Source: a virus
Virus record (IMG/VR): IMGVR_UViG_3300045412_000261
Span: 62,001-126,000 of that record
Reading direction: 5' to 3' (one strand)
Length of the DNA stretch: 64,000 nucleotides
Shown: positions 2,734 to 25,237 of the stretch, one piece after another
Position numbering within the stretch: position 1 is the stretch's first letter
How the letters are laid out: every line of letters begins with the position of its first letter
Notes under the pieces: generated by a model
What the model was told of the DNA's origin: nothing
Database searches by the model: none
Seen by the model: only the letters and a program-made list of their open reading frames with translations
Program-made: the position numbers and the translations under genes

Positions 2734-4314
2734 TTATTTTATAAGCCAAGTTAAACTTTCTGATTCATTACTTCTAGTTTTCATAGACCATGAATCGTGT
2801 ACTTTGTTAGAATTACTTGGAGTGTATATAGTTTTTGTTGTGTTATTTAGTAAAGTCCGAGAAAAACTTAAACCTAAAGTTTTCATTTTCAAAGAAGTAT
2901 CTCGAACCCAAAGACCGATAGCAAAAGACATAACTAAATCATCATTGTATCCATCTCTAGCTTCTGCTTTGTGGTCTTTCCAAACAAATGTAAATAATTC
3001 CTGTATTAATCTCTTACTATATACTATCGGCGATTTTTCTCTAAAATATGTCTCTAATTTAGAAATCATTACAGGCCTTGTTTTAGTAGATGTCGTAAAT
3101 CCGGGAACCATGTTATCTTTAAGTAAATAGTCTTGATTTATATTAACATGCACATCTGGGTCTACAAAAGGATCATTGCGAAAAGTATAGTATAAATTTT
3201 GGTATCCTAAGTCCAAAATAGTTTGTAACACTGCCCATCCAACATAAGCATTTTCAATAGCAAGTAAAGCACCGTTATATTCAGAGGCTATACTCATCAA
3301 CAAATGCCCAAATTCGGTGGTGCCAATCATACTCTTAAATTCTGCAACTTGTTCTAAAGTCTCTATATTTAAAACATGAAATGCAGAAAAATCAGAAGAA
3401 TCTCCCCTAGATACATCCGCACATACAACATAAGTACAATCACTCTCAGGGTACTTCCATATCCACAAATCTCCTGCTTCTCCTCTTTTTTCAATAGGAT
3501 CTTTTACACAATTATTTTCATACCAGACTAATATACTACCGTCAACTACGGTATGTCCGGATGTTAAAAAGTCTCCATCACATTCTTGAGCTGCCGCTTT
3601 TTCTCCTAATAAAATGTCTTGTTCTTTTCTCCATTTCCAATCTCTCTCCGGATGAACAGTCCACGGTAAAAATATAGAAGTAAAATCTCCCCCATTTAAT
3701 GATTCTTGCCAAATTCTATGAAATAAATTACCAACTCCATTTGGTGTAGACAGCAAAATACAACTACCTCCTGTAGCTAATGTAGATTGTGCAGCTGTCC
3801 ATATTTCTTCTGAATTAGTAATGTGTGCTGCTTCATCTATAACTAATAAAGACAATGCCTCCGATCTCGCTGAATCTGGGCTAGATGATACTGCTTTTAC
3901 ACTAGACCCATTATTTTTAAATCTGAGCATCATTTTATTATCTTCTAAGGTTTCTTGTTTTAACCATGATGGTAAAAAATCATGCATCAATCTAATTTTA
4001 AGAACTAAATTTTTTGCTATATCTTGTTTAGTTGCAATAATAAGAACTTTATATCCATTATTAAATATCATATTATGCAAAATGAATGCAGCTGATAATG
4101 TAGAAATTCCTAACTGCCTACCCTTATTTATAATAATGTACCTTTCTTTGTACATCTTTTCTAATGTAGTCTCTTGAAATGGATAAAGACCAAATAAAAT
4201 TCTACCTTTCTTTGGATGTTCTATCTTACAATATTTTTTAGTAAAATATATTGGATCTTTTGCACATTTTTTATATTCTTGAGCTATCGCTAATTTTACT
4301 TTATTCGTTGACAT
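2734..4314 (-). CDS. Terminase large subunit (T4 gp17-like)
   Basis: 526 residues with both terminase domains. The ATPase has a deviant Walker A (NKGRQLGIST, residues 63-72), Walker B with catalytic Glu (LLVIDEA, 156-162) and the coupling motif LLSTPNG (187-193). The RNase H-like nuclease has its first Asp in VVCADVSRGD (D300), a second acidic site in LAIENAY (E354) and the last in YNDDLVMSFA (D458/D459). It packages concatemeric DNA into the prohead and cuts it. Its start overlaps the end of the upstream zinc-protein gene by 14 bp, and the portal gene follows directly. No intein or truncation is seen. Confidence 0.95.
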   Translation of the reverse strand: MSTNKVKLAIAQEYKKCAKDPIYFTKKYCKIEHPKKGRILFGLYPFQETTLEKMYKERYIIINKGRQLGISTLSAAFILHNMIFNNGYKVLIIATKQDIAKNLVLKIRLMHDFLPSWLKQETLEDNKMMLRFKNNGSSVKAVSSSPDSARSEALSLLVIDEAAHITNSEEIWTAAQSTLATGGSCILLSTPNGVGNLFHRIWQESLNGGDFTSIFLPWTVHPERDWKWRKEQDILLGEKAAAQECDGDFLTSGHTVVDGSILVWYENNCVKDPIEKRGEAGDLWIWKYPESDCTYVVCADVSRGDSSDFSAFHVLNIETLEQVAEFKSMIGTTEFGHLLMSIASEYNGALLAIENAYVGWAVLQTILDLGYQNLYYTFRNDPFVDPDVHVNINQDYLLKDNMVPGFTTSTKTRPVMISKLETYFREKSPIVYSKRLIQELFTFVWKDHKAEARDGYNDDLVMSFAIGLWVRDTSLKMKTLGLSFSRTLLNNTTKTIYTPSNSNKVHDSWSMKTRSNESESLTWLIK

Positions 4315-4933
4315 CTATATTTAAATCTTTTTCATTTATATTATATGTTTCCATAATTTCATTTTTTAAATCATTAAAATCTGATTTAATCTTTTCTAAA
4401 AATGATTCTTTATTTTCGATTGACCATTTTTCAATAGATCCATCCGCATTAGAATATCCCATGTTATCAAATGATCTTAATAAAACTTCTACTTCTTTGG
4501 CTGCTTCTTTTAAAAATGAAATGGCATTCTCTTTCTTTTTATCATGAACGTAAGAATCAAATTTTCCATTTAATTTCAATTCTGCTTCGTATTTTATTGT
4601 ACATTCCAAACATCTTCCTGTTTTTTTTCCTAATTTTATATCTGCTTGACCAAATACTTTACCTTCACATGTATCTAAGCAATTTGGAAATTTCTGTATT
4701 TCATCTAATTTTTTTAAGATTTCTCTAACTCCTTTTGCTCTTTTTACTTTATATCCATCTCTTTGTTCCCATTCTGTAACATCCCCCATTGGTGATACTT
4801 CTTCCCAAATATCTCCAACTTTTCTTATTTGTGAATCTTCTACTTTTCTATATCCAATCGTCGTTCTTTTTTGAGATTTATGTTCCCCAACTAGAAGTTT
4901 TTTTACAGCTTCTATATTTTTTAATTTACTCAT
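4301..4933 (-). CDS. Conserved cysteine-motif protein upstream of terminase
   Basis: 210 residues. The N-terminal 75 residues contain KRTTIGY and VGDIWEE, which I recall from an unnamed family in marine T4-like phages. The centre has paired cysteines (CLDTC near residue 85 and CLECT near 109) that could bind zinc. The C-terminal third is acidic and helical. It sits immediately before the large terminase and overlaps it by 14 bp, the usual place of a small terminase subunit. However, T4 gp16-type proteins lack such cysteines, so the small-terminase reading is only positional inference. A short overlap (ATGA-like arrangement) links it to the fibre gene upstream. Confidence 0.75.
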
Positions 4934-7900
4934 GATTTTCTCCTTTTTCTAGTTTTGTAACTCTTTTATTTAAATCTTTTACCAAATCATATAGCTCTTG
5001 AATAGCTTTTAAATTATACACCGATAGTTTATCATAGTTAACAGCTAGTACTCCTTTTTGTCCCTCTATCTTAAACTCTTTTAATAATCCTGTTTTAAGG
5101 CCATCGGTTATATCTTGAGCTATAATACCTACTTCTTTATCGTTTACATTAGAAGGAACTCTATGAGATGTTGAATTTTTGTTAACTTCTAATATGACTC
5201 CTTTTAATTCATCCGTGTTCCAATTATAATTAACAGGTTTTATGCTATATAGTTGTTCTAGCACAGGATCTATTTCTTCTATATCCTTTTTTAGCCTTCT
5301 ATCCGAGAATGCTGCAAATGGTCCGCCTATGCCTCTCTCTCCTTTTTGTCCCTTTTGTCCTGTAGGACCGGTAGGACCGGTAGGACCCGTTGGACCGGCA
5401 GGACCCGGAGGGCCGGCAGGACCCGTAGGTCCCGGGGAGCCCGGTAGACCCGTGGGGCCGGTGTTTCCTGTTGGTCCGGTAAGTCCGGTAGGACCTGTTG
5501 GTCCGGTAGGGCCTAAATCTCCTTTAGATCCCTTAGCCCCAACTCCGGCTAATCCTGGGAATCCTATTTCACCCTTTTGTCCCTTAGGTCCGGGGCTTCC
5601 CGTATTTCCTTTAGGGCCTGGAATATTGCTAGGATTTCCGGCTGATCCCTTTGGTCCCGGCCCTCCAGGAGGACCTATTTCACCCTTTTGTCCCTTAGGT
5701 CCGGGGCTTCCCGTATTTCCTTTAGGGCCTGGAATATTGCTAGGATTTCCGGCTGATCCCTTTGGTCCCGGCCCTCCAGAAGGACCTATTTCACCCTTTT
5801 GTCCTTTAGACCCTGTATTTCCTGTGTTTCCTTTAGGGCCTGTTAGGCCAATATCTCCCTTACTTCCTTTATATCCTTTATACCCAATTTCACCTTTGCT
5901 TCCCTTGCTACCTGTAGGACCGGGAATAAAACTAGGATTTCCTTGAGGTCCTATGTCGCCTTTGTCACCCTTACTTCCGGAAAATCCGATTGAACCTATG
6001 TCTCCTTTATTGCCCTTGTCTCCTTTATATCCTTTATATCCAATTTCTCCTTTACTTCCTTTGAAATCACCTTTACTTCCTTTATCACCCTTACTTCCTT
6101 TATCACCTTTACTTCCGGATGGTCCTGGAGGACCTATTTTAGAACTTGGTATAGGAGATGGACTAGGTGACGGTGCAAAAACCCCTATACTCTCCGGAGA
6201 TGACATATTATGTACTAATATGTCTTCAACAAAAAAGTTTTGATTTTTCTCTACACTTAAATTGTATACAGTGCTTGATGTTGCGTATGAAAAAATAGTG
6301 GATATCTTTTCATAAGACAATGTTTTATAATTAAATAGTTCATCATTTATCGATAAATCCTTAGCTTTTTTCCAATATTTGTCATACCATCCTTTAACAT
6401 AAAAGGGATGCTCTTCGGTGCATTGTATGTCATTATTTATTACGTATAAATAATTTGCTTTTCCTACATGTTTGTATATTATTGTATCTTCTTGTAAGAT
6501 TTTGTTATCTATATCATAAGACATGATTGATTGTCCTATTGTAACTTCCTCTATTGTTATATAGCTATTATTTGCTGTTAATATCTTAGTAGATGGTATA
6601 AAGCAAGTAGGGCCTATAGATCCTGAAAATCCTTTGTCTCCTTTATCACCTTTACTTCCAGAAGGGCCAATAGAACCCGAAGGGCCGATAGGACCTGGAA
6701 TAAAACTAGGATTTCCTTGCGGTCCTAATTCTCCCTTTTGTCCCTTAGATCCAATATTTCCCTTAGATCCAATATTTCCCTTAGGTCCAATATTTCCCTT
6801 AGGTCCAGTATTACCTGTATTTCCCTTAGGACCGGGGATAAAACTAGGATTTCCTTGCGGTCCTGTATTGCCTTTATCACCTTTACTTCCAGAAGGGCCA
6901 ATAGAACCCGAAGGGCCGATAGGACCTGGAATAAAACTAGGATTTCCTTGCGGTCCTAATTCTCCCTTTTGTCCCTTAGATCCAATATTTCCCTTAGATC
7001 CAATATTTCCCTTAGGTCCAATATTTCCCTTAGGTCCAGTATTACCTGTATTTCCCTTAGGACCGGGGATAAAACTAGGATTTCCTTGCGGTCCTGTATT
7101 GCCTTTATCACCTTTACTTCCAGAAGGACCGGTAAATCCTAAGTTTCCTTTTTGTCCCTTAAGTCCTATAGATCCTTTATCTCCCTTACTTCCCGACGCT
7201 CCTATGGGACCTTTTTCCCCTCCACCGGCGATAGATACAAAACCTTTAAAACATTCTCCAAAAGTTATTTGAATTGTATTTTCATCTATTGCCGTGTAAT
7301 TTTCAGGTATAACTGAATTCCCGTCATATGAATATATAGTAAAAACAGGATATTCGATTCCTGTTCCGTGATTAACTGTAATAACATTACAACTATTCAG
7401 AGAACCTGTAAATACAGTGTTTCCAATTTCTCCTTTAGATCCGCTATTACCCTTTAACCCTGGATTTCCTTTAGGGCCTATATCTCCCTTATCTCCTTTT
7501 GTTGAAGAACTTGCTATTAATGCTTGAAATGCAGGACTACTGTTAAATGTATTTATTAAAAGTTGTTCATCAATAGTAACGTCAATATTAACTTTTACTC
7601 CATAAACTGTCGTGGAAAAATTAGCAGAGACTCCAATAACATTTAAATACTCTATTTCAAAAATATACTCAGTGTCTATTTTAGCTATTGGTAAATTATC
7701 TAAGGGAATATCTAAACAAAATTCATTAGGAGTTCCTCCATCAGATGCACTTGGGAAGATATCAATATCAGAGACATTCCATTGTCCTGCATTAATAATA
7801 AAGTTAGGTTTTATATTATCTTCTGAAGTAGCTTTAAATGTAAAAGTCTTTTTAATTTCAGACTTGTTATTACCTCCTATTATAGATCCTAAAAAAGTTC

Positions 7901-9536
7901 CAAATGAATTCCTTTCAGCTGTACTAGAAAGAGATGATGCATTTACTTGATTTACAGATAATGGAGATTTTTCTATATCAGGTCCTTGAATATAAATGTC
8001 AAGCTGCGGTGTCTTTCCATTAGCATCTTTTTCAGAAAATGCGGATATTTGTACGGTATATTCAGTATTAGGAACAGATTTAGATAAAAAAGAATCCTTT
8101 ATCGTTATATTTACTACCTCATTTTCTTGTTTATTGTGCTGTACGCCTAAGGCATTTACTAAATTTCCACTATTTGCGGAAGTAGTTATTCCTCCTGTTC
8201 CTATGTTCTCATATGAGGAATTCTGTTTTCTAAACTTATTTATATCAAAATAACTAGATATATCAGAATTATCTTTTATATCCCCCAATTTCTTATTTTC
8301 TATTCCTCCATTAGCAGAGAATGTATAAGAAGATGGATCAGTTAATTTACTAGTTTTTGGGATTTTAAATTCTCCTAAACTAACAGGACTTCCTACACCT
8401 CCTGCTGCTTTAGCCGAAACTTTTACTCTATCAACATCTCCCGAAATGGGTTTTGCATTTTTTACACATATTTTAGCATATCCTGTTTTCTTTTGTCCAT
8501 CGCTTGTATCCGGACTCTTGAAATAGTCTATACATATATTTGATGCTTCAAATTTAGTTATGTAAATTTCTGCGGATTCTTTTTTCTTATTTACGTATGA
8601 TTGCCTATAAAAAAATTGCTTATCTACTTTTATTTGAGTACTACTAATCACTTCTACAATAGTCGCAGTATAAGAAGGGACTGTAGGAGAATATCCAGAA
8701 GGTAAATCTCCGGGTAAATATTTAGAAATGTCAGGGGTTAAGGAAATGGTTCCTTTTTCCATTTCTTTCTTAAAGGGAGCTCCTGTATTGGCTACTATGG
8801 TGCTAAGATTATTAGCATCTGTTGTTATAGAAACGTTTCCAGAGTTAGCTAAACTTCCGGATGTATTTACCGTAGGGGTAGATTCTATAGGCACTCCCTC
8901 AAATAATTCCGGTATATTAGAGGAATAATTGGATGAATATTGAGATGGTGGAGCAGATGAAACAAAAGATAAACTAACAGCGTGGCAGCTTCCTGTAGCC
9001 CTACTTCCGGAAAAATTTTGAAAAGCTCTTGTTTCAGGAGTCAAATCAACTTTAGGAGGTATTGTATATTTAATATCCCCTATTGTTTTTTTCTTTGTAT
9101 TTACGAGTAAGCTACCAACCCATATGATATTAGGAGAAGATAAATTTGTTAATTTTTTACTTCTTAATACGTCATAATTGGCTGTACCTGCTATGTAAAT
9201 TTCACATTTTCCTATGGGTACGTTATCTCCTATATTAACAGTTACAATAGCAGAACCATTGGCATTTGCGGCATTCTTTATTTCGTGAGGGATTAAATTA
9301 CCTTCTGAATCATAAACTTCAACAAAAACTTGAGTTCCTTTTACTAAATTTTGCGTGGGGTTAATTCCAATCTCATTAGCTCCTTTTAAAAATTCACTAG
9401 GTAATGATAATCCAAAATAATTAGAACTTAAAGCATCACCATCAAACAAAGTAAACTCATTTATATAGCTCTTTATTCCAGAACTAGTCAATCTTTTATT
9501 TTCTTCAGATGATGGTGATGTTAATCCAAAAGCCAT
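4926..9536 (-). CDS. Giant collagen-like tail fibre with Hint domain and S74 chaperone
   Basis: 1536 residues. Residues 1 to about 675 are a beta-rich, Ser/Asn-rich region. Residues about 679-705 and 775-975 are collagen-like G-x-K/G-x-x triplets, separated by a beta module of about 65 residues (705-775) that recurs in the rightward fibres. Residues 978-1110 are a Hint (intein-like) domain. A Pro/Ser linker and a second collagen-like region (about 1130-1400) follow. The end (about 1404-1536) starts [14 protein letters not shown] and contains VGIIAQDI, the signature of the self-cleaving intramolecular chaperone of endosialidase (peptidase S74), which trimerises fibres and is then removed. It is probably a host-recognition fibre. 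Its place between terminase and recombination genes is unusual. Confidence 0.9.
5563..5784 (-). repeat. Tandem 111-bp repeat in collagen-coding DNA
   Basis: Two adjacent 111-bp units (5563-5673 and 5674-5784) are almost identical; the visible difference is in the PPGGPG versus PSGGPG codons. Each encodes 37 residues of collagen-like triplets including the GNPSNIPGP step. The pattern indicates copy-number change by slippage or recombination within the fibre shaft. Confidence 0.85.
6207..6605 (-). other. Hint / bacterial-intein-like domain inside the fibre
   Basis: 133 residues (978-1110 of the fibre). It begins with Cys in [13 protein letters not shown] (block A), has the block B pattern CTEEHPFYV with the conserved T..H, and ends in [10 protein letters not shown] (blocks F/G) followed by Met. 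It lacks a homing endonuclease. The residue after the terminal Asn is Met rather than Cys, Ser or Thr, so canonical protein splicing is not expected. That pattern matches bacterial intein-like (BIL) domains, which mostly cleave. It interrupts two collagen-like regions. Presence of the fold is clear from the motifs; self-cleavage is inference. Confidence 0.85.
6651..7112 (-). repeat. Exact 231-bp tandem duplication in collagen-coding DNA
   Basis: Units 6651-6881 and 6882-7112 are identical by eye over 231 bp (77 residues each), and a partial third unit begins at 7113. The lack of any synonymous difference points to a very recent duplication or ongoing homogenisation. The unit contains GNPSFIPGP breaks between G-x-K triplet runs. 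Confidence 0.9.
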
Positions 9537-9539
9537 TTA

Positions 9540-12500
9540 TTATGATATTAATTGAGAATGTCCGTTTTCCTTTACAATAAATAGTTCTTTTGATACATAA
9601 TCTTTAACTACATCTAAATGTGATATGCATAATATAAATCTAAAATATGATGTGAGCTCTTCTAAGAATAATCCTACATTAGCTATATTGTCAGAATCTA
9701 ATACACCAAATCCTTCATCTATAAAAAAGAAATCAGGTTTTGGAAGTACAGTAACATGATTTAATGCTGCTCTAATGGCTAAAGATGATATAAATTTCTC
9801 CATGCCAGAAGCTAATGAAAGAGGCCATTTAGGTCCATTTATGTAGCATATATAAACTTCTAATGTTTTATCAGATAACTCAAATTGAACATTGAATGCT
9901 GCTACATTTTTTAAAGCATCATTTACTACATTTTCTAAAACAGGTAAATAGTTTTTAATAATGAAAAGAGGAATTCCATCTCTTCTAGTCGCTTTCTCAA
10001 AAACAAAGTAATTATTATAAGTCAAAGTGTCATCTTTGAACTTTTTCATTTTTAATTTTATGTCTTTAATTTTTGATTCGTTGCTAGTTACTGTAGATTT
10101 ATGTCCACCTATAGTATAAGCTAATTGATATATAGCGTCATCTATTGATTTTTTTTCATCTAGTAACTTAGTTATTTCACTTTCTATTTCAGAGTTCTTT
10201 TGCTTTATATCTTTATATGACTCCTGTTCTTTTAATTTCTCGGAATAATCTAAAATTAAGTTTTTTGAGATTTGTATTTTCTCTTTTATAATATTTGCTT
10301 GATTTTCTATATTGTCCAAATTAGATTTTAGTTTATCTGCTTCGACTTTCTTGTCCTTGTATTTTTTATATAAGGAATCCGATATTTCTAAGTGCTCTAT
10401 ATGTTCTGCTACTTCTTTTTTATTTTGTTTTAGTTTATCTAGTTTTTCAGACAATCCAGGTAATTCTTTTTTAGCCTTTTCCCCATCTAATGCATACTTG
10501 TTGTTTTTTACACAATATACACAGTTAGGATCGTGCTCATAATCTTGTAGATGTTCAATTAATTTATTACTAGATTTTATTTCAGATTCCGTTACAGCTA
10601 TGTCTCTGTCAAGATCAGATAGTTTTTTTCTCACTTCAACTAGATTAGAAGATACATCAACTCTTTCTCCTATATCTTCTAACTCAGATAAATGAGATTT
10701 AAGGGCATTTCTAGCTTCTATAAAAGACTTTCTCTTATCGTCTAAGGATGAACTAAGCATATCTTCATTTCGCCTCTCTGCGTCTATTTTTGTGGCATAA
10801 TCTATATTTTCTTTAGGGTGATGAATTAATTCTTTTCTTTTGTCCTCAATTTTTACATATAGTGCATTAGAATTCTTTTTATTTAGTTCTAAGCTATCTT
10901 CTACTTGAGATAATTTAGTTCTAATTTCTGCTATATTATTTTCACACTCCGTTAAAGATTCATTATACTTTTGCTTTTGGTGGTTCTCAATTTCATATTT
11001 CAATTGCTTCAGATGTTCCTTAGATGTATCATTTAGCTTTTCAAATATATCTATATCAAAATACTTGTATAATAAGTCTTTTTTATCTTTTTGAGTCTTA
11101 TCAATAAAATCAGATTTATTATGTTGATCATACATCGTTATAAGCATAAAATTCTCATAACTTCCTAAATACTTTCTAATAATATCATTCGTCTCATATC
11201 TTTGCTCTCCATTTAAAGAAGTTCCGTCTTCTTTATAAAAATTAACAAGTACTTTTACCTTTCCGTCTTTTCCTTTTTTACCATGTCTTTCTATAAAGTA
11301 AGATTCTCCGGAAACAGATAATTCTAATCTACAATAAAACTCGGTAGATGATGTATTCAGTACCTCCGATCCTAGGCTTGTCTTACTACATTTATCAAAA
11401 ATACAATAAGTCATAGCATCTAGTAATGTGGATTTACCAGAGGCATTTGGTGAAAATAATCCGACAAGTCCACCTAATTCTCCTAGATTGAATACATTAC
11501 CTTCTCCGTATGAAAACATGTTAGAAAATTCAAATCGTATAGGTTTCCAAGTCACGCCTATAAATTCAGAAGGTTCGTCTAATTCTAAAGATGCTGTTTT
11601 ATGTATATCTAAAAACTTATCTGCTTGATATTCCTGTTTTAATTCATTTTGCACATAGTTTTCTAGCATCGAATGTCTCCAATCAAAATCTCTTATAATG
11701 TTTTCTTTTTCTAATGATACTTCCCCTTTGCCTGTATCAACTATGAATTTCGTTATTTTAGGCTTCTTTATTCGGATAACATTATATTTTTTCTCTAATC
11801 CTAAACAAAATGAATCTATAAATTCTTGAGTACAATTTTCGGCAGTGATTGCTACATTAAGATTATAAGGTAAATCTCCAGGTATTTTTTCTACTAATTT
11901 ATCATTCTTTAATTTAAATGTATAATAACAATGAGAAGATGGAATTTTAATAAACTCACTTTTTTTCTTATTTAAATCCCATTCTATAATTCCATGTGTT
12001 AAATCTTCTCCGAAGTTCTGTTGTATCAAACTAGATGGATAAGCTGCTGTTCTTTCTAAATTGAGATATTGATGTTTATGAATGTCCCCTAATAAAATAT
12101 AATCATAATCTGCATGTTCTAATACATCTAAATAATTTCCTTCTAATAGATATCCGTATGCTGTTGCCGAATTTTTTACCGGTCCATGATACAATAATAT
12201 TTTTGTGTCTGCATCAAAAGATTTTGCGGGGATTACATTTTCAATTTTATCTTTAACATGTAATAAACTAAATGCTATTTGTTCATATTTATATACATTT
12301 GTTTCATTCAAGAAATGTATTGTAGGTAAATCTAAACTTTTTATAATGGGAGTTAATGCATCTAATCTTGTTCTATTATTTAGATTTAAGTCATGGTTTC
12401 CTAATATTACTATTGTAGGAAGCATGTTTGCTAATGTAGATAATAATGTAGATACCACTGAGAATAATTCTGGAGACATGTTTGTTTTTGAATGTACGAT

Positions 12501-12671
12501 ATCCCCGCCCAAAAATATAATAGAATTGGGAGTCATTCTTTTCTCAATGATTTTATACAATTTCTCAAACACTTCTATGTATTCTTCATGTCTTTGATAA
12601 TTATAAACATGAATATCTGAAATGTGAAAAATTTTATCGACTTTTCTTCCCGTGTCCTTTAATAGAATCAT
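9540..12671 (-). CDS. Fused Mre11/Rad50-type recombination nuclease (gp47-gp46 fusion)
   Basis: 1043 residues. The N-terminal 340 residues are an Mre11/SbcD/gp47 metallophosphatase: HISDIHV (D19, H21), FLGGDIVHS (D57), ILGNHDL (N92, H93), YHGP (H162) and LLGDIHKHQ. From about residue 378 a Rad50/SbcC/gp46 ATPase follows: Walker A GLFSPNASGKST (404-415), long coiled-coil arms, a zinc-hook CVYC near 715, the ABC signature LASGMEKF near 950 and Walker B FFFIDEGFG near 978. In T4 these are two genes acting as a complex that resects DNA ends for recombination-dependent replication. Here one polypeptide carries both halves. Start ATG overlaps the primase stop as ATGA. Confidence 0.93.
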   Translation of the reverse strand: MILLKDTGRKVDKIFHISDIHVYNYQRHEEYIEVFEKLYKIIEKRMTPNSIIFLGGDIVHSKTNMSPELFSVVSTLLSTLANMLPTIVILGNHDLNLNNRTRLDALTPIIKSLDLPTIHFLNETNVYKYEQIAFSLLHVKDKIENVIPAKSFDADTKILLYHGPVKNSATAYGYLLEGNYLDVLEHADYDYILLGDIHKHQYLNLERTAAYPSSLIQQNFGEDLTHGIIEWDLNKKKSEFIKIPSSHCYYTFKLKNDKLVEKIPGDLPYNLNVAITAENCTQEFIDSFCLGLEKKYNVIRIKKPKITKFIVDTGKGEVSLEKENIIRDFDWRHSMLENYVQNELKQEYQADKFLDIHKTASLELDEPSEFIGVTWKPIRFEFSNMFSYGEGNVFNLGELGGLVGLFSPNASGKSTLLDAMTYCIFDKCSKTSLGSEVLNTSSTEFYCRLELSVSGESYFIERHGKKGKDGKVKVLVNFYKEDGTSLNGEQRYETNDIIRKYLGSYENFMLITMYDQHNKSDFIDKTQKDKKDLLYKYFDIDIFEKLNDTSKEHLKQLKYEIENHQKQKYNESLTECENNIAEIRTKLSQVEDSLELNKKNSNALYVKIEDKRKELIHHPKENIDYATKIDAERRNEDMLSSSLDDKRKSFIEARNALKSHLSELEDIGERVDVSSNLVEVRKKLSDLDRDIAVTESEIKSSNKLIEHLQDYEHDPNCVYCVKNNKYALDGEKAKKELPGLSEKLDKLKQNKKEVAEHIEHLEISDSLYKKYKDKKVEADKLKSNLDNIENQANIIKEKIQISKNLILDYSEKLKEQESYKDIKQKNSEIESEITKLLDEKKSIDDAIYQLAYTIGGHKSTVTSNESKIKDIKLKMKKFKDDTLTYNNYFVFEKATRRDGIPLFIIKNYLPVLENVVNDALKNVAAFNVQFELSDKTLEVYICYINGPKWPLSLASGMEKFISSLAIRAALNHVTVLPKPDFFFIDEGFGVLDSDNIANVGLFLEELTSYFRFILCISHLDVVKDYVSKELFIVKENGHSQLIS

Positions 12672-20779: not shown

Positions 20780-23700
20780 TTAAACTATTATTTGGTTTGC
20801 GCTAACTTCTCTGTATTCTACTACAGGTCCACCATCAATTGTATCTGTTGTGTCTACATTAAAATCTAATCCGGTTAATTTACAGCCAGTAAATCTAATT
20901 CTATTAGATACGGAGTCTTCGACATATTGATAATTAGCAGGTACTAAGGAAGATGAATAGTAATTTTTAGTGTTTATCAATGTTGCTAAATTTAAATTTT
21001 TTTGATATTGTGAGGAATAATTTACGGCGGTACTAGATGAATAATGATATACTACTTTCTTATATTTTAAATTAGATTTTTCAGATTGTATAATAGATTG
21101 AGTAACATATGAACTATTCCTATAAATGTTTCCAGCATCATTTATCACATATTCATTTTTATATAAATATTCTTTTAGCTGTAATTTAGTTAATGTAGAA
21201 TTAAAATTATGGAAACTAGATGAAAGAACATAATTATATGAATTATTATCATTGTAAAAATTATCAATATTAAAATTAGTAACTTTACCCACTATGTTTT
21301 CTATCTTATAAAATGAGGAATCCAATTTAAAATCATTAGATATTACATTTGTATTTCCATCATAAAAATTAATCTTTCTTCTATTTAATACTCTATTCTT
21401 ATATGTTCCATTTCTTTTAAATCTATATGCAATGTTTTCTTCTATAGATCCACTTCCATGTAACACATTGCCTATAAACGATAAATGTCTGTTTAAAGTT
21501 GCATATGATTCAATTAATTTTCTTTCATTATCAAAATAGTATAAGGATTCCATGTTTGATGTAATATCATTTTCTTCATTTGTATTAAGTAGATGTATAT
21601 TACCTTTTATATGTTCTAATGTTCCTAAATCTGAAATAGAGTATATGTTTGACATGTCTCTATTTATTTCTGAGATGTCAATTAGATTTTCATATTTATA
21701 TAAGTACGTGTCCCCGCCAAATTCATATAAATTACCTTTTTGATTTACTTTGTGAGATTCTAAATCTGAGAATACTAAAGAATAATCTCCATAGTAATTC
21801 AATGTAGATGTTATTTTTTCATGCTTAAAATCTGGAGTTATGGATATAGGTAATTCTGATTTATACTTCCTGTACTCTAATTCTAAATCAGGAGGCATTT
21901 CTGTATTTGTACTATATTTTATTTGTTCAAAATCAGGTGCTATATCAAATTCTAAAGATGACGTATATTTTTTATGTGATATTTCGACAGGAGGGGCATA
22001 GCTTATAGAACCTGTATACAAAATATATTCTCCTACCTGACTATCGGTTTTTATAATTGTTTTCTCATATTGTGGATTAGTTAGAGATGGATTTTTTCTA
22101 GCAACTTTAGCTCTCTCCAATACATTCTCTTCTAATAATATCCCTGCTATAAGATTTGCTCTAGCTGGAACTAATTGTTTTATCTGTTCAAATATGGAAT
22201 AATCATACAATGAAAATATCTCTATGTACTTGTTGTAATTATTTCTGTTTTTATATTTTTTCCAATAATTTTCCCTGTTTAGCCTAAGATTATTATACTC
22301 GTCTCTATATAAATCGGAAGGGTCTCCAATTAAATTATCTAAATCTATTCCTCCATATTGATTTGCTATATCTCTATTTACTTGGTCTGTAGGGCTAAAT
22401 ACTACAGCTAATTTATTTGAATCTACAGGGTCTGTATCAAAAGTATTTATTTGAACTCTTTTTTCCGAGGATAGTTGGTTTGTATAAAAAGATTCTTCTA
22501 TTCGTATTTTATCACTTTTAACTATACTCGCACCAATTGAAGGAGAATAGCTGTAGTAAATTTCTGAATATGGCTTGTATTGATTTTCTTGAGAACCTGT
22601 AAAACCTATAAAACTAGCTGTTGTATATTGTGATTTTACTCTATTTGGATGACTTGATGATACAAACTTATATGCAGAATGATTATATCTGAGAGCATCT
22701 ACGCCCATTGGGTAAAATCTATTTAACGTATCAAAAGAGGAAGTGTAAGAAGAACCATGATATGCAGCAGGGTTAAGTGTGTGTTCTTCAAATATTTTTT
22801 CAGAGTATATATCACTATAATCCTTATAAGCTTGTAAAAATCCTCTATATCTACTAGAATTTACTCCTGCAAATTGACTTCCCGTAGAACCCCCTAATAT
22901 TATATTATGAGGTATCAATAAGGAACTAGTTGATCCCCATGTAAATGATATATCAGCTGACGAAGTCACAATCATAGATCCAGAAAAACTAATCCAATTC
23001 TCAAAGTCACCACTAGATTTTTTCCACTCTATGTGTATAGAACCTGTTTTTTTAGTATTCGATATATTTCTATCTGTGTATATTCGAACATTCCAAGCAT
23101 CTCCGTCAAAAAAAGGATAGTACTTAGATTGTATTGTTTTTATTGTGAAAGAAGATGTTGAATTTGAAGTACTTTGAGCGCTTTTATATCTTAAATAGCC
23201 ATAAGCATAACTACCACTCCTTGATGAAGTAGAAAATGCTCTGTAACTTACTAGCTCTAAATTATTATATACTTTGTTACTATTTTTAGAATCCTCTATA
23301 GACCATAAACTCATACTAAGGCTAGATGAATTTGTTGTCCTAAACCTAAATTCAGATACACGAGGTGCGGAAACCTGATTTTCATTTGGAGGGATTGATT
23401 GTCCCCACGGAATTTTTACAAATTGATTTCCGTCAAATTTTAGTAAATACTGATATCTGTAACTTTTATGCGTCGGGTTGTACTTAGGAGGTCTTGCTCC
23501 ACCGTATTCCTTTATGCTAATTAATGTCTGAGGTATTCCATATATAGACAATAGCGTTTTTAAACTACGTTCTGTGCCCTTTGTTTTTAAAAGAGTCGGT
23601 ATGTTATTTACTATTCTTCTCCAAATCTGATGTGTGAGATATTCATGAGCCTGAGAAGCTAAAGTACCGGTTTCTAAAAAACTTCCTGTATTATCAGTAC

Positions 23701-25237
23701 CTAGTTTATATAGCCAAAGATTACTTAATTGATATCCATTATTTACTTCCCATCCTAATGATTTCGCATAAGTTTTTAAAAGCTCATTAGGAATTCCTCT
23801 TTTAGGATGTTCATCTCTTCTATGAATAGAAGTAAGTTCTTTAGTAAAAGCATATAAATTATCAAAGTGCTGTCCTATCATATCAAGAAAAACAAAATAT
23901 TCGGAGTTGTCCGGATTGTTTACGATATGACCAGGAGTAGCTTCATATAAGGTATTATAATTTCTACTATCGAATCTACTAGCTTTTGATAAAGAAGATG
24001 AATACCAATAATTGTATGCAGAAGATGTTATATGATAGTTATAATACTTATTGTTTGATATATACTTAGGAGCCGGGGTAATGCTTCCTGTTATGTCATA
24101 AGAAAAAATACTACCAGAAGAATAGTACAAATAATTCTCAAATTCATCAAAACTATTTTTAACCTGATAAGACCTTTTTATTATTTTGTTATAATCAGCA
24201 ATACCAAACAGACTCCCCGAACCATTGCTATTTTTTATCGCATTACTTTGGCTATTATAAAATTCTATTAACTGTAATTTATAATTATAATTCTTTAATC
24301 TTTCTTGAGCAGATCCATAAAATACAAAATTAGAAAAATCAGAATAGTCTATATTTAAAGGAACAGAAGCGGAGGATGATATAACTCTGTTTATTATAGT
24401 GTTGGCTGTTTCATACTTTGAATCCAATAAAGTATCCCAATAGTGATAAATATTTTCATCTTTTGAAGGCAATAAACTATTCCATGTACTATAATTAGTA
24501 GATTCTCCGCTAGTTGTATTTATCGAATAATTTGGAGTTAAAGTTCTAGGTTCACTAACTACTTCAGGGGATGTAACAGTAAATGAATCAAAATAATCTT
24601 CTGCTACTTTATAGCATATATGAAGTAGATTTCCTGTTTTTAAATTTTCTACAGGATTAAATAATTTAACATAAATTACATATTCATCTTCACAATCTAC
24701 TTTTATATTTATAATTGAATAAATTTTATTCTCCCCTAAATTTATTACAATATTATTAATAAATCCTAATGTTCTTAAATAAGATGCTTTTTCTTTAAAT
24801 AACTCTAATTTATTTATTATATCGGGATTATTTTTTAGGTAATTAGGCCTTATTGCTAATTTTAATTCTAACTCATCCGGACTTATTTCTTGAATATAAA
24901 AATATTGATTATCTATATCACCAAAAATATTATACAAAAAATTAAAACATAATTTATAAGTTCCTTCAAATATTTCAGAATCAAAAAATAATTTACATAC
25001 ATCAAAATTTATATCATCATAAGTAGAATCAAAATCATTTCTTACATTATAAGCAGATTTAACTAAATCATAGTTTGTATTATAAATGTGAGAATCTATT
25101 GAAAATGGATTTTTTATATCATCCACTATTCCTTTTGATATATCTAAACTCATAAATGGTTCATAATCAAATGATACTCCTTCAATTAATGATGATGAAT
25201 CCTTTATTTTATCTTTATTTATGAATCTATCTATCAT
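20780..25237 (-). CDS. Very large tail structural protein
   Basis: 1485 residues, rich in Tyr, Ser and Asn, with no signal peptide or membrane segment. Residues about 440-560 hold a helical block (FLDMIGQHFDNLYAF, LLKTYAKSLGWE, RRIVNNIPTLLKTKGTERS) that I recall from long unnamed structural proteins of environmental T4-like phages. Residues about 640-800 (SSLSMSLWSIED, then GSIHIEWKKSSGDFENW) look like a concanavalin-type sandwich. The C-terminal 400 residues are low complexity. The start overlaps the stop of the collagen-like gene in the order TGA/ATG. Likely a tail-tip or baseplate component; I cannot assign a T4 equivalent. Confidence 0.75.
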   Translation of the reverse strand: MIDRFINKDKIKDSSSLIEGVSFDYEPFMSLDISKGIVDDIKNPFSIDSHIYNTNYDLVKSAYNVRNDFDSTYDDINFDVCKLFFDSEIFEGTYKLCFNFLYNIFGDIDNQYFYIQEISPDELELKLAIRPNYLKNNPDIINKLELFKEKASYLRTLGFINNIVINLGENKIYSIINIKVDCEDEYVIYVKLFNPVENLKTGNLLHICYKVAEDYFDSFTVTSPEVVSEPRTLTPNYSINTTSGESTNYSTWNSLLPSKDENIYHYWDTLLDSKYETANTIINRVISSSASVPLNIDYSDFSNFVFYGSAQERLKNYNYKLQLIEFYNSQSNAIKNSNGSGSLFGIADYNKIIKRSYQVKNSFDEFENYLYYSSGSIFSYDITGSITPAPKYISNNKYYNYHITSSAYNYWYSSSLSKASRFDSRNYNTLYEATPGHIVNNPDNSEYFVFLDMIGQHFDNLYAFTKELTSIHRRDEHPKRGIPNELLKTYAKSLGWEVNNGYQLSNLWLYKLGTDNTGSFLETGTLASQAHEYLTHQIWRRIVNNIPTLLKTKGTERSLKTLLSIYGIPQTLISIKEYGGARPPKYNPTHKSYRYQYLLKFDGNQFVKIPWGQSIPPNENQVSAPRVSEFRFRTTNSSSLSMSLWSIEDSKNSNKVYNNLELVSYRAFSTSSRSGSYAYGYLRYKSAQSTSNSTSSFTIKTIQSKYYPFFDGDAWNVRIYTDRNISNTKKTGSIHIEWKKSSGDFENWISFSGSMIVTSSADISFTWGSTSSLLIPHNIILGGSTGSQFAGVNSSRYRGFLQAYKDYSDIYSEKIFEEHTLNPAAYHGSSYTSSFDTLNRFYPMGVDALRYNHSAYKFVSSSHPNRVKSQYTTASFIGFTGSQENQYKPYSEIYYSYSPSIGASIVKSDKIRIEESFYTNQLSSEKRVQINTFDTDPVDSNKLAVVFSPTDQVNRDIANQYGGIDLDNLIGDPSDLYRDEYNNLRLNRENYWKKYKNRNNYNKYIEIFSLYDYSIFEQIKQLVPARANLIAGILLEENVLERAKVARKNPSLTNPQYEKTIIKTDSQVGEYILYTGSISYAPPVEISHKKYTSSLEFDIAPDFEQIKYSTNTEMPPDLELEYRKYKSELPISITPDFKHEKITSTLNYYGDYSLVFSDLESHKVNQKGNLYEFGGDTYLYKYENLIDISEINRDMSNIYSISDLGTLEHIKGNIHLLNTNEENDITSNMESLYYFDNERKLIESYATLNRHLSFIGNVLHGSGSIEENIAYRFKRNGTYKNRVLNRRKINFYDGNTNVISNDFKLDSSFYKIENIVGKVTNFNIDNFYNDNNSYNYVLSSSFHNFNSTLTKLQLKEYLYKNEYVINDAGNIYRNSSYVTQSIIQSEKSNLKYKKVVYHYSSSTAVNYSSQYQKNLNLATLINTKNYYSSSLVPANYQYVEDSVSNRIRFTGCKLTGLDFNVDTTDTIDGGPVVEYREVSANQIIV

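Follow-up and report, generated by a model that had tools for sequence, protein, structure and literature searches.

The DNA analysed here (the window) comprises 64,000 nucleotides, bases 62,001–126,000 of a 142,581-base virus record. T4-like structural genes are present in the window, and the large terminase is 50–53% identical to those of its closest isolates, Microcystis phage Mel-JY01 and Flavobacterium phage immuto. The virus is an uncultured, T4-type virus that infects bacteria. The window contains a collagen-like tail fibre gene (Table 1) positioned between a gp46/SbcC-like gene (9540–12671) and, on the other side, a 210-aa gene and then the gene for the large terminase (2734–4314). A promoter and terminator scan of the fibre gene gave matches that were not above chance.

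Table 1. Features of the collagen-like fibre gene, in window positions.
Feature	Position	Strand	Basis
Collagen-like tail fibre gene, 1,536 aa, single ORF	9536..4926	minus	ORF and translation; Pfam Collagen and Peptidase_S74; PHROG tail fibre families; synteny in relatives
N-terminal non-collagen region, residues 1–670	7527..9536	minus	alignment, tblastn
Non-collagen segment, ~residues 706–771, between first short collagen stretch and main shaft (approximate boundaries)	7224..7421	minus	sequence
Collagen-like shaft before Hint, residues 774–977, last triplet Gly-Pro-Thr complete	6606..7217	minus	Pfam, sequence
Hint domain, BIL type A-like, residues 978–1110, Cys1 to terminal Asn	6207..6605	minus	translation, profiles, AlphaFold, Foldseek
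Block B motif Thr-Glu-Glu-His (T-x-x-H), residues 1040–1043	6408..6419	minus	sequence
Terminal His-Asn of Hint, residues 1109–1110, then Met1111	6207..6212	minus	sequence
Pro/Ser-rich non-collagen linker after Hint, residues 1111–1134, first residue Met+1	6135..6206	minus	sequence; found in 8/8 relatives
Collagen-like shaft after Hint, residues ~1135–1404, Lys-rich beside linker	5325..6134	minus	Pfam, sequence
C-terminal S74 intramolecular chaperone, residues 1411–1536, Ser1411 and Lys1416	4929..5306	minus	PF13884; dyad numbering from PMC8326128

Collagen-like sequence flanks the Hint domain on both sides (PF01391, 1.2e-56). At the N-side junction the collagen stops at a full triplet (GPT/C), and at the C-side junction a 24-residue Pro/Ser-rich linker precedes the collagen. 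The collagen upstream of the Hint is itself broken by the non-collagen segment (~706–773), which is kept in two fibres that have no Hint (L085 and L086), and the N-terminal region is ~91% identical in Hint-bearing relatives with full-length fibres (alignment, tblastn). Within the shaft adjoining the Hint lies a 231-nt tandem duplication with 98% identity (6630–7091); collagen repeats of this type probably drive shaft-length variation and the exchange of modules between relatives. The fibre is capped by an S74 domain, matched by Peptidase_S74 at residues 1411–1476 with 38.7 bits against a cut-off of 22 (PF13884). In S74 domains trimer folding starts at the C-terminus and cleavage takes place only in the trimeric state, and the spacing of S1411 and K1416 is that of the Ser-Lys autocleavage dyad, as in S911 and K916 of endoNF (PMC8326128). 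Trimer-dependent autocleavage is predicted for the fibre by analogy with the family. With the Hint and the S74 domain, one chain has two potential autoproteolytic modules, in line with an earlier suggestion made in a preliminary description of this DNA.

Translation of 6605..6207 yields exactly 133 residues ending in ILVHN, with junctions at Thr977/Cys978 and Asn1110/Met1111. The preliminary description had placed, without naming the strand, a 133-aa Hint domain with Cys1, a T..H motif and a terminal His-Asn between collagen-like regions, and every coordinate was found to be correct, with translation and profiles in agreement. The isolated domain scored 42.5 bits against Pfam Intein_splicing (curated cut-off 35.8) and matched TIGR01445 and TIGR01443, the N- and C-terminal intein regions, above their curated cut-offs. 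It also scored 29.6 bits against PT-HINT (PF07591; cut-off 27.7), a family for which the whole fibre, at 24 bits, falls below the cut-off. Because the isolated domain exceeds curated Pfam and TIGR cut-offs, the match is not due to chance. A Hint fold was predicted with high confidence by AlphaFold (AF2, 17-sequence alignment), with a block pLDDT of ~91–96 over most of the domain and a single dip to 79. The best Foldseek matches in the PDB were BIL2 of Tetrahymena BUBL1 (6y75, 7.6e-12) and CthBIL4 (2lwy, 5e-10), both with a probability of 1.00, followed by mini-inteins and, at 1.6e-5, Hedgehog. The same two BIL domains were the top two matches in a sequence search. The block F residue is Asn (VYNL), where many class 1 inteins have Asp, and activity may consequently be slow.

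By sequence and fold criteria the domain is a type A BIL domain, with activity predicted. Shared with CthBIL4 and BUBL1 BIL2 (6y75/6tmm) are the Hint fold, Cys1, T-x-x-H and terminal His-Asn, the absence of both a +1 nucleophile and an endonuclease, and a site in a variable part of an extracellular-type protein. In the fibre this variability is seen in the collagen shaft, which differs in repeat content, and in the Hint, which is present or absent among orthologues. What sets the window domain apart is its site in the fibre of a phage virion, where it has collagen on either side and the S74 chaperone downstream. Among type A BIL domains a non-nucleophilic +1 residue is the rule, and they mostly cleave but can splice (PMC4031507). 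Their route consists of an N-terminal thioester, cyclisation of the C-terminal Asn and, where ligation occurs, attack of the freed amine on the thioester, with cleavage dominant (PMC4031507, PMC7664689, PMC7765530); all residues named for this route are present in the window domain. Splicing through a branched intermediate is impossible because the +1 residue is Met. The preliminary description had argued from this Met that classical splicing was unlikely; this stands, canonical class 1 splicing being excluded, but is incomplete given that splicing by type A BIL domains is possible even with no nucleophile at +1 (PMC4031507).

Three other Hint classes were considered and rejected. Class 1 inteins, such as the Ssp DnaB mini-intein (1mi8), share the fold and the N- and C-terminal motifs, but the window Hint has neither Cys/Ser/Thr at +1 nor an endonuclease and lies in a variable shaft rather than at a conserved enzyme site. 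Met1111, the insertion into a repetitive shaft and the lack of the Hint in orthologues rule this class out. The pretoxin HINT of polymorphic toxins is suggested by the PF07591 match of the isolated domain and by weak Hint homologues in bacterial PT-HINT proteins; it is ruled out by context, as linker, collagen and S74 follow the Hint and no toxin domain does. The Hedgehog Hog domain (1at0) shares the Hint fold and, in principle, the thioester chemistry, but the window Hint has no sterol-recognition region after it and ends in His-Asn. A search of the open-access literature gave no account of a Hint in collagen-like phage fibres among papers containing all terms, a weak absence; inteins described in papers that were read lay in other genes. 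A phage fibre with a collagen-like shaft and an S74 cap is a new setting for this known domain type.

Eight IMG/VR contigs carry the Hint in the same fibre at 77–89% identity, all with GPT/C before the domain, HN/MS after it and the same Pro/Ser linker. No variation was seen at Cys1, T-x-x-H or His-Asn across the window and its fibre relatives, and Met occupies the +1 position in all eight as well as in the window. The identity of this residue in nine fibres could mean either that it matters or that the sample is merely close-knit. Between the window and one relative (L003) the Hint has a dN/dS of 0.067 at a dS of 0.84, compared with a dN/dS of 0.052 for the N-terminus and 0.077 for S74; against a second relative (L008) the Hint dN/dS is 0.12. 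The Hint is constrained as strongly as the remainder of the fibre. Its dS to L003 equals that of the terminase (~0.82), which marks the Hint as an old resident. A more distant Hint, 37–39% identical to that of the window, lies near the N-terminus of a Thr-Pro-repeat-rich protein (L043:3920-4306) and carries Lys where block B should have His (GETQK); judging from its sequence, this copy is possibly decayed.

The collagen bordering the Hint is rich in Lys. In fibres of the L003 type, Lys was counted before the Hint at 4 in 33 adjoining the domain and 0 in 113 further off, and after it at 14 in 72 adjoining and 3 in 258 further off. Lys-rich collagen also flanks other globular parts of these fibres and is otherwise missing from the QGN-type shafts. 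That it occurs beside the Hint as beside other globular parts is as expected if the Hint is folded during shaft assembly.

The preliminary description had pointed to related fibres without the domain as a useful comparison, and presence and absence of the Hint were found among orthologous fibres. In one (L033) the N-terminal part is 88% identical, the neighbours are the same and the collagen runs to S74 without a Hint, with frameshifts elsewhere in the gene. Two similar cases were found (L081 and L083), and in a further two (L085 and L086) one open frame spans the stretch between the non-collagen segment and S74, and no Hint lies in it. In these Hint-less orthologues, located beside the same terminase, the shaft is uninterrupted. 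Contigs broken inside the collagen (e.g. L022-L025, L030, L031, L091, L093) were left out of the Hint-less count. On this sequence comparison, the fibre does not require the Hint.

The distribution of the Hint does not track the phage tree, since by terminase dS the Hint-less phages (0.37–0.42) are nearer to a Hint-bearing group (L088-L106) than is the Hint-bearing window (~0.82). The simplest account is either that the L033 lineage lost a Hint that its ancestor had, or that exchange took place. In L008 the terminase is separated from that of L088 by a dS of 0.01 and the S74 from that of L003 by 0.13, whereas the Hint is at a dS of ~1.1 from that of L003. Despite its L088-like terminase and close S74 this Hint is far from that of L003, indicating that the Hint part of the fibre has been exchanged; these values rule out purely vertical inheritance without exchange.

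The occurrence of Hint domains in phage fibres is broader than the preliminary description suggested. A megablast of the window fibre against isolate phages gave no match. In Erwinia jumbo phages that have been cultured, among them Y3 (gp110), Alexandra (gp112) and Yoloswag (gp102), a virion protein with collagen-like sequence ends in a Hint and ~10 further residues, and proteins of this type number ~50–60 records. Y3 gp110 (PHROG 38766) is annotated as 'putative phage tail protein, contains intein domain'. As in the window, the protein is a collagen-like phage structural protein, the Hint has Cys1, T-x-x-H and His-Asn, and it is optional: the homologue in Dickeya phages JA29 and JA11 ends in ...TARNPK, 6–7 residues short of the Cys1 position, and has no Hint. 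The part before the Hint can thus be a complete virion protein. The Erwinia proteins differ in the C-terminal placement of the Hint, in a +1 residue that is mostly Thr and in an extra domain between collagen and Hint, Ig-like in appearance (by eye, no family match). They belong to an unrelated phage lineage, S74 was not detected in them, and their Hint sequences lie apart in the tree.

Further examples were found in uncultured phages. In long fibre-like proteins from IMG/VR (L146, and L189 with DUF4815) the Hint is terminal and followed by 1–11 residues. In another fibre (L134:3406-6645) the Hint is followed by two residues and an S74-like motif (VHN/KV/SDIRLKEN), recognised by eye with no Pfam match in a region covered by PHROG 6121 'virion structural protein'; from this layout the mature fibre would end in the Hint after S74 cleavage. 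An internal Hint with Lys at +1 is found in a 2,638-aa virion protein of ~164-kb phages (L118:1-7914, also L119-L125 and L133). This protein is distantly related to a Hint-less window ORF (20780-25237; 30% over 308 aa), and its joined flanks (L048) had no isolate homologue. In BFVD, the phage protein A0A6J5QMR4, which bears the name 'Collagen triple helix repeat', also matches the Hint fold. A 484-kb phage (LR756508.1; L012:4176-5474) encodes a fibre-like protein with a C-terminal Hint (FHN/KH, end) in a gene directly after an SbcC/gp46-like gene, as in the window. Across 33 viral Hints, a sample neither random nor de-replicated, the +1 residue was K in 20, R in 4, M in 3, T in 2, A in 2, Q in 1 and L in 1, and never Cys or Ser. 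In a rough tree the fibre Hints occupied several separate places, which suggests repeated acquisition.

We give somewhat better than an even chance to the reading that this type A BIL-like Hint is a functional, conserved self-processing domain, carried optionally within a collagen-like fibre shaft that ends in S74 and acting once the fibre has folded, with cleavage likelier than splicing. We infer the following order of events. Trimer folding would start at the S74 end, and the Hint would form a globular domain that interrupts the shaft. Cys978 would then take over the acyl group of Thr977 to form a thioester, and Asn1110 would cyclise and break the bond to Met1111. The chain would be cut at one junction or at both, and some of it would be ligated through attack of the freed Met1111 amine on the thioester. 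Processing probably comes late or in response to a trigger, since a prompt cut would part the anchored N-terminal shaft from the S74 trimeriser; this and the Lys-rich collagen bordering the Hint point to late or triggered processing, or to ligation. The benefit may be a self-removing or breakaway fibre end. Downstream of the Hint the reading frame continues through collagen and S74, and purifying selection acts on S74; splicing or retention would account for this just as well as cleavage at a late stage.

The foremost alternative, which we regard as unlikely, is BIL-style splicing, in which the Hint is excised and Thr977 ligated to Met1111, leaving a continuous mature fibre with a Pro/Ser hinge at the scar. 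Besides the capacity of type A BIL domains to splice, the unbroken shaft of the Hint-less orthologues indicates a functional continuity that splicing would bring back; the 2,638-aa virion protein, with its internal Hint, is also compatible with such a role. However, cleavage dominates in the type A BIL domains studied (PMC4031507, PMC7664689), and the spliced product would keep a 22–24-residue break in the Gly-X-Y repeat. Many phages moreover carry the Hint at the extreme C-terminus with only 1–11 residues to ligate (L126, L146, L189, L012, Y3 gp110), so splicing cannot be the shared purpose. Together with the Dickeya homologue that stops before the Hint, these fibre-end positions favour a removable module over splicing as the purpose that the proteins would have in common. 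The C-terminal Hints indicate that the part before the Hint can stand alone, and cleavage itself is not implied by them.

Somewhat less probable again is retention of the Hint fold as a structural knob or receptor-contact domain with little or no reactivity. The collagen caps point to stable folding of the domain within the shaft, and the Lys of L043 at the block B His position indicates that catalytic decay occurs in the group. In the fibre family, however, all core catalytic residues are kept across a dS of ~0.84–1.1, and structure alone would not preserve Cys1, the block B Thr and His, and His-Asn together.

It is improbable that the Hint effects a Hedgehog-like transfer, in which an amine or hydroxyl of a neighbouring chain or of the host surface attacks the thioester at residue 977 and the fibre becomes covalently joined; reaction with a host-surface nucleophile had been raised in the preliminary description. 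Such chemistry is possible for a Hint thioester, which in Hedgehog leads to joining with cholesterol (PMC5874633), and both the Lys-rich collagen adjoining the Hint and the common fibre-end position of phage Hints would suit it. Unlike in Hedgehog, only linker, collagen and S74 follow the Hint, with no acceptor-recognition region; free-Hint thioesters hydrolyse, and the Lys-rich caps need no chemical reason, being found also beside other globular fibre parts. A decaying intein or functionless selfish remnant in the course of being lost, to which presence and absence among orthologues and the lack of a homing endonuclease might point, is highly improbable given the age of the Hint as judged by dS and purifying selection equal to that on the rest of the fibre, the dN/dS ruling out decay.

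Intein reviews describe the chemistry of BIL domains and give only a general role in protein variability (PMC4031507, PMC7664689, PMC7765530). In this phage fibre, strong purifying selection acts on a BIL-type domain that shares its chain with a second, potentially autoproteolytic module and that close relatives may have or lack. If the domain is active, the fibre would set its own length or state chemically once assembled, and full-length predictions would give a wrong picture of the mature structure. A wider proposal, which we consider a long shot, is that widespread optional Hint modules in phage virions leave an activated thioester at a fibre end or break point for chemistry at the host surface, by which the fibre would attach covalently or its distal part be released on a trigger; tail fibres with a Hint would then be reactive and not passive adhesins. 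With a Hint-bearing collagen-like virion protein in cultured Erwinia jumbo phages and a Hint-less homologue in Dickeya phages, the role of the module in the virion is open to proteomics on existing isolates.

A separate family of ~600–900-aa phage proteins from IMG/VR ends in at least two tandem Hint or Hint-like domains (L126/L044, L127-L132, L136/L045, L140, L142, L145, L154-L157). Its members, for example L127:976-3189 and L140:3691-6405, start with MKGTLFSxDF...LLEINTDT and have no Pfam match outside the Hints. The spacers are short peptides, such as YKA, PFGGARMEAPAY and the Cys-rich VCTGCTWAACGNYWCDSFCRQCSGGPVI, and the last Hint ends in VHNK(K). Such a layout could allow the release, or even the cyclisation, of the short spacer peptides.
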